From Nitrososphaerota archaeon (GTDB lineage: Archaea > Thermoproteota > Nitrososphaeria > Conexivisphaerales > DTJL01): a stretch of 36,088 nucleotides of DNA. The notes under the pieces were generated by a model. The model was not told the origin of the DNA. It did not search any database and saw nothing but the letters and a program-made list of their open reading frames with translations. The position numbers and the translations under genes were made by a program. The stretch lies in the NCBI GenBank assembly GCA_021324115.1, contig JAJPJS010000017.1, positions 1 through 36,088 of the forward strand, in the 5' to 3' direction. This document shows positions 23,592-28,697 of this stretch, in pieces (position 1 is the stretch's first letter; each line of letters opens with the position of its first letter).

Positions 23592-25742
23592 TTATTCTGC
23601 TTTGGGTACTGGCAGCCCCGCCGCCCTGAACACTGTACCAGCGGCATCCCCGATCATCTTAGAGTAAACCTCCCTGTCATAGCTGCCCCCCGTGACCCCC
23701 TCGGCTCTGACCCTGCACATAGGATTCCTGTTTTCCGAATCTGTGAAGATAAATTTTATACTGTCTCCCGCAAACACTTCTCTGCCTTGCCCCAGCATCT
23801 GCATCGCAGCCGAAAGGTGAACGACTCTGTTTCTGTACTCGTCCGGTTCCTTCCTCAGGCTTCTGGATACCAGTAAGGAATCCACATCCACGTTTCCACT
23901 CCTGACCTGCCGAATGGTATCCTGCAGCAGTCTGGCGGCCTCCGCCACGCCGTAGGTCAGGACATCATCCATCGTATCTCTGTCCATCAGCTCAAGTATC
24001 AGCCTTTTCTGGAACTCCCTCACGAGTACTGGGGAATCCTCCCTCCTGAGCTCTATCCCTCTGGCTTCAACCTCACCATCGTACGTCACACCAAAGTATC
24101 TCTTCAGGGCAGAAGATGATGGGTCCCCCTTGAGTTTGGGGAACGCAATGAACTTGAAATGCTTGTCTAGGGACATCGGAAGCCCCGTAATCCTTGATAC
24201 CTCAGCCGCCAGTTCCTCATAATCCTCTCTAGTCGCATCATTTCTTTTGATGAAGCATGAATCAACATCGGCATAAACCACTTCGTACCCCCGGCTCTCA
24301 ATGAGGGATTTGGCCGTCATCATGGCTTCCCTGGACTTCCTGTTTATTTCTTCGAAGGTAACGACATTTCCGAACCTGTTCCAGCAACATCCGGAAATCC
24401 CGTACTGCGTCACGAGCATCAGCTTCAGCGCATCCACCCTCTGTTCGCAGAACAGCCTTTCCTCACTTCCCTTTGGAAGAGACTTCTTGACCCTTTTCAG
24501 CTCCATGCGCCTTTTCAACCATGGTCCCATCACCAGCGGAATGAGTCCCACACCCCCTTCTGCAGAAACCTCTCCTTCGCCCATCGGTCTTTCGTAGCTC
24601 AACCCTGACCGAAGGATTATGTTCGGATACTGAGAATCAAAGTCTATCGCGGCCACGTTATGGTGAAGCGTTTCAGAAATGGGTGTCAGGCTGATTCCTC
24701 CCCTGTCCCTTAACATGACCTGCTCGAGATCCCTCGCAACTTCAAAATACCCTTCCTTCGGTATCGCGTAGCCTCTCCTGATCAATTCGTAGCAGTTTCT
24801 TGAATCAATCGACCTGTTGCTCAGCCATCTGGACGTCAGACCGATGGGCAGAAAGCTGAACCTTGTTCTTTCCACGAGTCCAGCGACGCCCCAGAGTTCT
24901 GTGGGATGGCCCACCATACTGTCCTCTATGAGTATTCTGCCTCCCCAGGAACCCTGAGCCTTCACCTGCTCGGCATCGACGCTCCTGCCCAGCCCCGGCC
25001 CCAGCCCGGACCCCACATTCATCTTCATCTCTGCTTCTTCTACCGCATCTTTCAGCATAGGGAATACAACTTCGTCACACCTGGGGATTACAATGATATC
25101 CGGGTCCGCTTCTCTTACTACCTGGGCGATTCCATACCCAATCTCCTTCTTCGTCCCCTCTATGACCTCCACACCGTCACCATGCGCAGTCACAAGCCTG
25201 GTCATCCTTCTCCTTCTTCCCCCCTCCTCAAGCACATATTCGGGTTCTATCCTCAACATGGAAAAGGGCGGCGGTCTTGCTCTGTCGGGGTCATCCACCT
25301 TGGTCATCCATGCGAGCCTGTCCCCATCCCGACCTACCCTCACTCTGCTCGTGGGTTCCACGCACAGCCTGGTGAACAGGTACTTCTGCACATGTCTGAT
25401 GTCCACATCATACAGTGAGCCTACGAGGCCGTTTCCTTCCAACCCCTTCACGAGCTGCCTGAACTCCTTCGTTCCCCTCGTTTCTACCCTGAGCAGCCTT
25501 TCCCTGACGGGGGAAGAAATGTCGACGAACTTTTCTTCGGCCCTGACAGAACTCACGGCAGGACATTCATAAAGCATTGACAGCAGCTGCCATTCTTCTG
25601 ACCACCCGGATGGCTTTGCATAGAACCATGGAACGTACCTGTCCTCCATTCTCAGGTTTCTGCCATCGTCACCCTTGACCCAGACTATCGCTCTGTCCCC
25701 CTGCACGTACACATCAAGAAGCCATCCTTCGAGCTCGCTCAT
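23592..25742 (-). CDS. Family B DNA polymerase, PolB2-like, exonuclease motifs degenerate
   Basis: A 716-residue polymerase, shorter than replicative PolB (about 780-900). Motif A is DFDSQYPNII (D367), motif C is YADVDS (D492, D494) and the KKRY-like motif is LKRY (547-549), so both metal-binding aspartates are present. Motif B (K440LMLVTQYG) lacks the usual NS before x-YG. The exonuclease domain is eroded: Exo I is LRIEPE (164-168) instead of DIE, and Exo II is RCDEVVFPML (221-230) without the N...D pair. This pattern fits the PolB2 group, in which DNA-damage tolerance has been reported for crenarchaeal Dpo2. It overlaps the upstream RadA-like gene by 4 nt (ATGA). Confidence 0.9.
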   Translation of the reverse strand: MSELEGWLLDVYVQGDRAIVWVKGDDGRNLRMEDRYVPWFYAKPSGWSEEWQLLSMLYECPAVSSVRAEEKFVDISSPVRERLLRVETRGTKEFRQLVKGLEGNGLVGSLYDVDIRHVQKYLFTRLCVEPTSRVRVGRDGDRLAWMTKVDDPDRARPPPFSMLRIEPEYVLEEGGRRRRMTRLVTAHGDGVEVIEGTKKEIGYGIAQVVREADPDIIVIPRCDEVVFPMLKDAVEEAEMKMNVGSGLGPGLGRSVDAEQVKAQGSWGGRILIEDSMVGHPTELWGVAGLVERTRFSFLPIGLTSRWLSNRSIDSRNCYELIRRGYAIPKEGYFEVARDLEQVMLRDRGGISLTPISETLHHNVAAIDFDSQYPNIILRSGLSYERPMGEGEVSAEGGVGLIPLVMGPWLKRRMELKRVKKSLPKGSEERLFCEQRVDALKLMLVTQYGISGCCWNRFGNVVTFEEINRKSREAMMTAKSLIESRGYEVVYADVDSCFIKRNDATREDYEELAAEVSRITGLPMSLDKHFKFIAFPKLKGDPSSSALKRYFGVTYDGEVEARGIELRREDSPVLVREFQKRLILELMDRDTMDDVLTYGVAEAARLLQDTIRQVRSGNVDVDSLLVSRSLRKEPDEYRNRVVHLSAAMQMLGQGREVFAGDSIKFIFTDSENRNPMCRVRAEGVTGGSYDREVYSKMIGDAAGTVFRAAGLPVPKAE

Positions 25743-26800
25743 GCCTTCTTTTCACCACTCTCCCGGAGTCTTTCGACTTCCTTCCTCAACTCCTCCAGCT
25801 GCTGCCTGAGCGCCGCCACTTCGGCGGCATTTCTCACGTTGGCCGTGAGGTTCATTGCATCCAGAACGAGGGGCAACTGTGAGTTGGCCATCGCGGCATG
25901 TTCCCCATCCCACGCCTCCCTGATCAGTGCTTCGAATGCCTCTCTGAACTTCTTGTCCCTGAGGAGCGGCTGATACTGGGTCCTGAGCTTCGCCAGAACT
26001 TCAAGGTATACCTGTCTGAACGAAGGCGTCATTCTTCCCATGAGCGGATTCCCTCCTTTTGATATGATGACAGATTCCGGCGTTCTCCTCTCCGGATGCT
26101 TGACGAGGACGGCCTGCACGATGTCCCTCTGAACCCTTCGAAAAAAGATGCATGTGTTTGCCAGCTGCCCGAGCAGAGCACTCCCCTCCGGTGCCGGAAT
26201 TCTTCCCCTTGGTGCGGCTGCCGCGCCGCCTGTCACCACCATTATCATCGACCTGGATGAGGAGTATCGCCAAAGCTTGGAAAGCGTCACATTCACAGAC
26301 TGCAATGTGGATCGTCTGTCCTTCGCATCTGCAAGAAACCGGGTGATGTTATGTGCCAGGAGCAAAACCCCATTGCCATCACCACATGTCTCAAGCTCCC
26401 TCATTCTTTCGATGAGGGCGCCAGCCGCCTTGGTCTGCCTGAATTCGTTGTACGCGGCTACAAAAAAGACATTCCTCATGACAAGCACCGGTTCCACACC
26501 TTCTCTTTTTGCATACCCGGCCAGCGAATTCAGGTCCAGAAGCGTCTTTGCGGTATGATAATCTGTGTTATTCATGTACACGACCAGGCCCCTCGGGACC
26601 CCCCTTACCATCAACCTGTGGACCAGGTCGTCAATGAACATCTCATCTCCATAGAAAAGGTATGTCTGCCCGCCATGCAGCTCACCCACGAGCCCATCGA
26701 GCTCCTCGACCCCGGTGGTCATCACATTTGTTTCTTCATGCATTTGAGATGCTCTGACCATCAGTGCAGGCATGGCATGGCTTTCATTCATTGGGATCAT
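25739..26800 (-). CDS. Inactivated RadA-like protein with C-terminal coiled coil
   Basis: A 353-residue RecA/RadA-fold protein with no functional P-loop. TTGVEELDGLVGELHGGQTYLFYGDE (28-53) aligns with RadA's [26 protein letters not shown] region, but the GSGKS that follows in RadA is replaced by MFIDD. The Walker B position reads GVLLLAHN (144-151) instead of LIVVDS, and RadA's VITNQ reads VVTGG. The final 30 residues (LRQQLEELRKEVERLRES) form a coiled coil absent from RadA. It starts 10 nt after radA and overlaps polB2 by 4 nt. A structural adaptor between RadA and PolB2 is the best inference; ATP hydrolysis is not expected. Confidence 0.85.
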   Translation of the reverse strand: MIPMNESHAMPALMVRASQMHEETNVMTTGVEELDGLVGELHGGQTYLFYGDEMFIDDLVHRLMVRGVPRGLVVYMNNTDYHTAKTLLDLNSLAGYAKREGVEPVLVMRNVFFVAAYNEFRQTKAAGALIERMRELETCGDGNGVLLLAHNITRFLADAKDRRSTLQSVNVTLSKLWRYSSSRSMIMVVTGGAAAAPRGRIPAPEGSALLGQLANTCIFFRRVQRDIVQAVLVKHPERRTPESVIISKGGNPLMGRMTPSFRQVYLEVLAKLRTQYQPLLRDKKFREAFEALIREAWDGEHAAMANSQLPLVLDAMNLTANVRNAAEVAALRQQLEELRKEVERLRESGEKKA

Positions 26801-26810
26801 ACGACCAGCA

Positions 26811-28012: not shown

Positions 28013-28028
28013 GCGCCAAGATAAGACG

Positions 28029-28697
28029 ATGAACAACCATGTCAGCCCAGAAAAGTTGCTTTTTCTTCTTTCATACTCCAGGGCCGGTTCCATCTCCGAG
28101 AACGTTTTGAAAAAGCTGTTCGGAGATCAAACAGAGGAGGTTGAACAGCTCATCCATTCATGCGGGGGCACATTCATTCAAACAAATGGAACCAACTACC
28201 ACATGCTGTCCCATGCGTGCAGGGTGAAGCTTGGGATCAAAATATGCGAGACAGGGTACGACATAAGCAGGGTGGTCAAGTTTCTGACCTGGCAAGATTT
28301 TGAATTTTTTGTTTGCCAGGTTGCTGAGGAAGTAGGATACAGGGCGCTGCACGACATTCGAATGAAAAAACCCAGGATGCAAATAGATGCCGTATGCATA
28401 AAGGGTGACTTTGGCATATCATTTGACTGCAAACACTGGCGTTACTACAGTCACTCCGCGATTTCCTCTGCCGCCATCGCACAGGGCAAAAGATCTGCAA
28501 GACTGTGTGAGTCAAAGATTATTCCGGGGGTTAGAAGAGTTCTGCCTGCTGTCGTTACCATACATGAAACCGCAATCAGGTTGTTGGATGGCGTCGCAAT
28601 CGTTCCTGTAAATGCAATTAACACGTTTTTACTTGATGCGATGTATAACTTTGATATTTTCACGCCTTCATCAAAAGATGTCGAGGCAAAAGATTAG
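28029..28697 (+). CDS. PD-(D/E)XK nuclease, archaeal repair or restriction type
   Basis: A 222-residue protein. Residues 1-75 look like a winged-helix or helical domain. The nuclease core begins near WQDFEFFVCQVAEEVGYRALHD. The catalytic pattern is E100/E101, D120 (MQIDAV), D133 and K135 (SFDCKHW), followed by a helix with AIAQGKRSARLC, as in Mrr/RecB-like folds. It probably cuts DNA or RNA in the cytoplasm. No methyltransferase is adjacent, so a restriction-modification role is less likely than repair. It is divergent from the radA operon, with 243 nt between the starts, and its promoter lies inside an inverted repeat. Confidence 0.8.
   Translation: MNNHVSPEKLLFLLSYSRAGSISENVLKKLFGDQTEEVEQLIHSCGGTFIQTNGTNYHMLSHACRVKLGIKICETGYDISRVVKFLTWQDFEFFVCQVAEEVGYRALHDIRMKKPRMQIDAVCIKGDFGISFDCKHWRYYSHSAISSAAIAQGKRSARLCESKIIPGVRRVLPAVVTIHETAIRLLDGVAIVPVNAINTFLLDAMYNFDIFTPSSKDVEAKD

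Follow-up and report, generated by a model that had tools for sequence, protein, structure and literature searches.

The 36,088-nt window, which is contig 16 of a 2.14-Mb draft genome of a Nitrososphaerota archaeon, carries an operon of three minus-strand genes that is a PolB2 mutasome, an already known kind of system, with an intact second RadA as its first gene. The reading preferred here, to which we assign a probability of about 0.7, is that the operon encodes the PolB2 translesion mutasome, comprising the B-family DNA polymerase PolB2, an inactivated RadA (iRadA) as the adaptor, and the small protein PPB2, plus an ATPase-competent RadA (RadA2), and that iRadA links PolB2 to a filament of RadA2. 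The analysis itself established which genes are present, how they are linked, which motifs were lost or kept, and the phylogeny; the literature supplies the mutagenic role of PolB2 and its induction by damage, both in Sulfolobales, and the model of the PolB2-iRadA-PPB2 complex; contact between RadA2 and iRadA, their binding, the role of the filament, mutagenesis, and damage induction in the source organism are predicted. Two studies, that of Makarova et al. 2014 (PMC4104785) and that of Timinskas et al. 2025 (PMC11791011), describe a single operon that encodes PolB2, an inactive RadA, and PPB2, some of them fused, and liken the complex to Pol V. An earlier, sequence-only reading of the window as an archaeal mutagenesis or damage-tolerance cassette was thus right about the kind of system, the core of which had already been published. 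The new part of the finding is the intact second RadA. No mention of a second RadA in PolB2 operons was found in the literature searched, supplements and subscription papers aside, and priority is uncertain.

The three open reading frames (ORFs) encode RadA2 (26811-27800), a RadA-like protein of 353 amino acids (25739-26800), and a polymerase of 716 amino acids (23592-25742). Their coordinates agree with the tight packing described in the sequence-only reading, with a 10-nt gap (26801-26810) between radA2 and the middle gene and a 4-nt ATGA overlap (25739-25742) between the middle gene and polB2. The Shine-Dalgarno-like sequences GGTGAT and GTGGTGA precede the second and third genes, respectively. 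All three published mutasome components sit in this single same-strand run, and adjacency on one strand was also found among the compared loci. The genes neighboring polB2 are radA2, the iRadA-PPB2 gene, and a gene for a PhoU-domain protein, and the Y-family polymerase of the genome is located on a different contig.

The first gene, radA2 (26811..27800, minus strand; start at 27800 or 27785), matches Pfam Rad51 with an E value of 1.3e-81 and scores 380 bits against the NCBIfam RadA equivalog. The P-loop GMFGSGKS (27423-27446), the catalytic Glu in DTEGT (27330-27344), the Walker B motif LIVVDS (27156-27173), and the FVTA polymerization motif of the FxxA type (27558-27569) are intact, and the TNQ motif and the L2 glycines (GG) are also retained, so that RadA2 has these hallmarks of the RadA/Rad51 superfamily. 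It had been called canonical, which holds for its ATPase motifs and not for its standing in the genome. A higher-scoring RadA (407 versus 352 bits for the operon RadA) lies on contig 26 (C26:136389-137327), and all four genomes of the family carry two RadA genes. The operon RadA falls in an operon-linked clade and outside the housekeeping grouping (arCOG00417), and the main RadA (L011) falls elsewhere. The operon RadA is therefore a second RadA, with the housekeeping RadA on another contig and in a different clade; the recombinase that had been supposed to be cotranscribed is intact and is not the housekeeping one.

Locus counts were compiled from three neighborhood tables, with duplicate records removed, and gave 44 loci with enough upstream sequence. 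The polB2 gene adjoins iRadA in 39 of them; a further one is cut off by the end of its contig, and four copies, from family f20, are free-standing. The proposed check on the RadA-like protein, that its relatives should co-occur with polB2, was thus passed. A same-strand RadA, intact or partly masked, lies directly upstream of iRadA in 20 of the 44 loci, which belong to Conexivisphaerales, two other families of the class, Nitrososphaerales, Geothermarchaeota, Brockarchaeota, Bathyarchaeota, six Calditenuaceae-type genomes, and two further members of the phylum. The named genomes checked among these have another, higher-scoring RadA elsewhere. The 18 operon RadAs known at that stage all fell into one clade (98/90) of a maximum-likelihood tree, with the main RadAs of their genomes outside it, and the core operon-RadA clade remained in a larger tree (96). 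The operon RadAs of G256, which also has another RadA, and G263 fall outside this clade, and joining them to it was rejected by the approximately unbiased test (p 0.0003). A RadA has therefore been recruited to this operon position at least twice, and the independent recruitment in these two other families argues for selection. In the operon RadAs of two Conexivisphaerales loci (L143:3632-4555 and L147:3629-4540), the N-terminal helix-hairpin-helix domain is not recognizable. The housekeeping radA genes of three genomes (G002:C51, G003:C6, and G198:C3; L018, L017, and L097/L107) appear to be interrupted at the P-loop region by long in-frame insertions, which are probably inteins, and the operon radA2 genes of the same genomes, where present, are uninterrupted. 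An apparent loss of the P-loop in the RadA of L238 was traced to an assembly gap (N) rather than a mutation.

The iRadA part of the middle gene (26045..26800, minus strand) has a RadA fold and lacks the N-terminal helical domain. Its first 250 residues contain no P-loop, the corresponding region being at 26630-26656, yet hhalign matched them to RadA with a probability of 99.4% and an E value of 2e-21. The AlphaFold model (predicted local distance difference test [pLDDT] score, 83) matched RAD51/RadA chains in Foldseek, with an E value of 5e-15 to a RAD51 chain, and the top matches include RAD51 chains from paralogue-capped filaments, a general match to the RAD51 fold. An FxxA-like motif, MVRA (26750-26761), and the AAYN pocket strand (26435-26461) are kept, and among about 40 iRadA sequences the P-loop occurs in none, while [FMLI]xxA and the A[YF]N pocket are retained in nearly all. 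By these motifs, both RadA-RadA contact surfaces persist in iRadA despite the loss of ATPase motifs, and because both faces were kept while the ATPase was lost, iRadA looks like an adaptor. A change of the FxxA phenylalanine to Met or Leu where RadA2 is present gave suggestive counts; the same change is seen where RadA2 is absent and tracks lineage, and no association is claimed. A search of viral and defense libraries with iRadA gave no informative match.

The description of the middle protein as a RadA fold without ATPase motifs overlooked its C-terminal portion. Residues 254 to 353 (25739..26041, minus strand) are, by alignment, PPB2 (arCOG07300), the third known mutasome subunit. This part begins MGRMTPSFRQ, with the MGRM arm at residues 254 to 257, aligns with a stand-alone 92-amino-acid protein (MGRITPTFRQ) in a genome of the same family (L008), and is helical in the predicted model, as expected of the small helical protein for which Timinskas et al. 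2025 (PMC11791011) described an "MGRT" arm. An internal Shine-Dalgarno sequence, AAAAGGAGGGAA (26049..26060, minus strand), lies upstream of the PPB2 start, and AAAAGGAGGG directly precedes the internal ATG (26041). With a dG of -11.1, this Shine-Dalgarno site has the strongest anti-Shine-Dalgarno pairing of all in-frame positions in the fused gene, and the effect across 22 fused loci as a group is significant (p 1e-10). These features suggest that free PPB2 is probably also made from the internal start, besides the fusion; the site in iRadA-PPB2 fusions has already been reported by Timinskas et al. 2025 (PMC11791011). Family f20, with named relatives in Methanomethylicia, has extra iRadA-PPB2 fusion genes (L231, L232, L234, L235, and L237), four of the five without polB2 in the stretch examined.

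The third gene, polB2 (23592..25742, minus strand), encodes a B-family polymerase (Pfam DNA_pol_B and NCBIfam PRK05761) that, as the sequence-only reading held, appears deficient in proofreading. The exonuclease domain has no Pfam or NCBIfam match, and, on inspection, LRIE and IPRCDEVVF stand at the places of exonuclease motifs I and II and lack the canonical acidic residues. The catalytic DxD motif (YADVDS, D367; 24258-24275) is intact; two relatives in the same family have AVD at the position of these aspartates. The AlphaFold model (pLDDT, 86.5) matches archaeal family-B polymerases in Foldseek, and the assignment to the PolB2 type is based on domain matches, alignments, and this model. An FExA...DR loop, YFEVARDLEQVMLRDRGG (24696-24749), corresponds to the published iRadA-binding motif and is poorly ordered in the monomer model. 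The link of PolB2 to damage tolerance in Sulfolobales, taken as established in the sequence-only reading, accords with the literature, in which both a mutagenic role and damage induction are known; in Sulfolobus, PolB2 extends mismatches and is required for targeted mutagenesis (PMC7390963, PMC8764526). Damage-inducible expression of the PolB2 mutasome and its heteropentamer are known or modelled from other work (PMC11791011). In Candidatus Geothermarchaeota CSMAG_1319 (L068:10074-12764; same genome as L133), PolB2 has a C-terminal LigD-type 3'-phosphoesterase domain (PF13298; E value, 8e-23), which is an unusual end-cleaning domain for a translesion polymerase.

The relation between the RecA filament and Pol V is established, and its extension to RadA2, iRadA, and PolB2 is proposed by analogy. 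At stalled forks or gaps, RadA2 would assemble into a nucleoprotein filament on single-stranded template, iRadA would use its own FxxA-like motif to dock on the end of this filament, and the FExA loop of PolB2 would plug into the iRadA pocket. The resulting RadA2(n)-iRadA-PolB2 chain, with the PPB2 arm, could place the error-prone polymerase at the primer end, with the filament end facing the primer. Published models have PolB2 binding iRadA through a RadA-type motif (PMC11791011). It is possible, if still tentative, that many TACK archaea have a four-part mutasome of this design, in which the iRadA motif docks on a filament of the operon-encoded, ATP-active RadA2, the iRadA pocket takes PolB2, and the combined RecA-filament and polymerase-bound parts of Pol V are split between two paralogous genes.

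Several observations weigh against the coupling of PolB2 to a RadA2 filament. Published modelling found poor binding between PolB2 and RadA, the modelled RadA being probably the housekeeping one. No RadA lies beside iRadA in 24 of the 44 loci, and because of this RadA2 is not needed for the core mutasome. The operon RadAs of Calditenuaceae type (L123, L125, L127, L128, L129, and L138) keep the P-loop and have LMTG in place of FxxA, and given this replacement their filaments may differ; in the larger tree, their union with the RadA2 clade is weaker (79). In soil Nitrososphaeraceae, which are ammonia-oxidizing archaea, genes of the RadA2 clade occur without iRadA; of three that were examined, two sit in a trp gene context. 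RadA2 therefore has, or has gained, a role of its own there, and it is not strictly dedicated to the PolB2 operon.

These free-standing copies, the absence of RadA2 from many operons, and its full set of recombinase motifs would also fit a general back-up recombinase that is merely co-regulated with the PolB2 mutasome, damage inducing both without the proteins touching. This explanation seems unlikely, since RadA2 immediately precedes iRadA, on the same strand, in many families, a RadA was recruited independently at least once, and iRadA retained both RadA contact surfaces after the ATPase was lost. PolB2, iRadA, and RadA2 might instead form a machine for recombination-associated synthesis, extending D-loops or gaps, in which RadA2 filaments would be capped by iRadA in the manner of RAD51 paralogues. 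The recombinase-like character of RadA2 and the paralogue-capped RAD51 chains among the top matches of iRadA, which reflect the general RAD51 fold, are consistent with such a machine; it is nevertheless judged quite improbable, as the mismatch-extending Sulfolobus PolB2 is needed for targeted mutagenesis (PMC7390963, PMC8764526) and the loss of the exonuclease suits error-prone synthesis. That a housekeeping radA stands beside polB2 by chance would accord with the good score against the RadA equivalog (380 bits), but the better RadA elsewhere in the genome and the clade position in the tree refute it, and the recurrence of the arrangement in 20 of the 44 loci makes such a coincidence extremely improbable.

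A working part for the divergent nuclease, which the sequence-only reading had linked to the cassette, is likewise very improbable. A NERD/restriction-endonuclease-like ORF (28029..28697, plus strand) is indeed present and divergent; it scores 22.0 bits, just below the 22.1 cut-off, matches phrog_17577, and has an ID-x(13)-DCK motif. Its nuclease-like domain and its position as a divergent neighbor, in the window genome alone, favor membership. Its linkage is not conserved, however, and synteny places it outside the cassette: only one of three family relatives has a homologue, five genes away at the far end of a block of SDR, PTPS, QueC, and FolE2 genes, next to deazapurine genes. The relatives have the SDR-PTPS-QueC-FolE2 block upstream of radA2 and codirectional with it; in the window, the nuclease-SDR-PTPS-QueC-FolE2 block (28029-31547) is inverted relative to radA2 compared with the three relatives. 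A perfect palindrome, CGGTGAT-N6-ATCACCG (27994-28013), lies 15 nt ahead of the start codon of the nuclease gene, and none of the relatives examined has a copy. For both reasons it was rejected as an operator of the radA2-polB2 operon, and it is possibly the nuclease's own operator.

The proposed coupling through iRadA bears on how PolB2 is recruited and controlled, for which published models have the inactive RadA only and no active recombinase. In the conserved, operon-encoded active RadA paralogue there is a concrete candidate for control of archaeal mutagenesis by a filament, and through it the parallel with Pol V becomes open to testing on purified proteins. In addition, second RadAs are probably labelled as plain RadA, which calls for a correction of annotation.

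Among known systems, the window operon is closest in content to the PolB2 mutasome (arCOG07300 and inactivated RadA arCOGs; the Sulfolobales Dpo2 operon), with which it shares three components on the same strand, an inactive RadA, the MGR arm, an iRadA-PPB2 fusion with an internal Shine-Dalgarno site, and a lost exonuclease. Its intact DxD motif resembles that of TACK members near the PolB2 root. It differs in the added second RadA, and orc1/cdc6, SRAP, and DUF72 genes were not recognized among the adjoining window genes examined. The likeness to the ImuA-ImuB-DnaE2 cassette, of which an independent archaeal counterpart had been suggested, is a loose one: a RecA-like accessory stands beside a mutagenic polymerase, but the window has neither a C-family DnaE2 nor a Y-like ImuB, the polymerase family differs, and no common origin is indicated. 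Eukaryotic RAD51 paralogue complexes (BCDX2 and the XRCC3 complex) also contain RAD51-fold accessories, which cap or remodel filaments of active RAD51, and structures with their paralogues rank among the solved structures nearest in fold to iRadA; iRadA, however, is ATPase-dead and tied to a polymerase, and it has no N-terminal domain. In the Escherichia coli Pol V mutasome (UmuD'2C-RecA-ATP), as in the arrangement proposed here, an error-prone polymerase is joined to a RecA-family protein by an oligomerization-type motif and an active recombinase is involved. Pol V has a Y-family polymerase, UmuC, with UmuD', whereas the window polymerase belongs to the B family, and one RecA does both jobs in Pol V, whereas the window has separate genes for the adaptor, iRadA, and the ATPase, RadA2.

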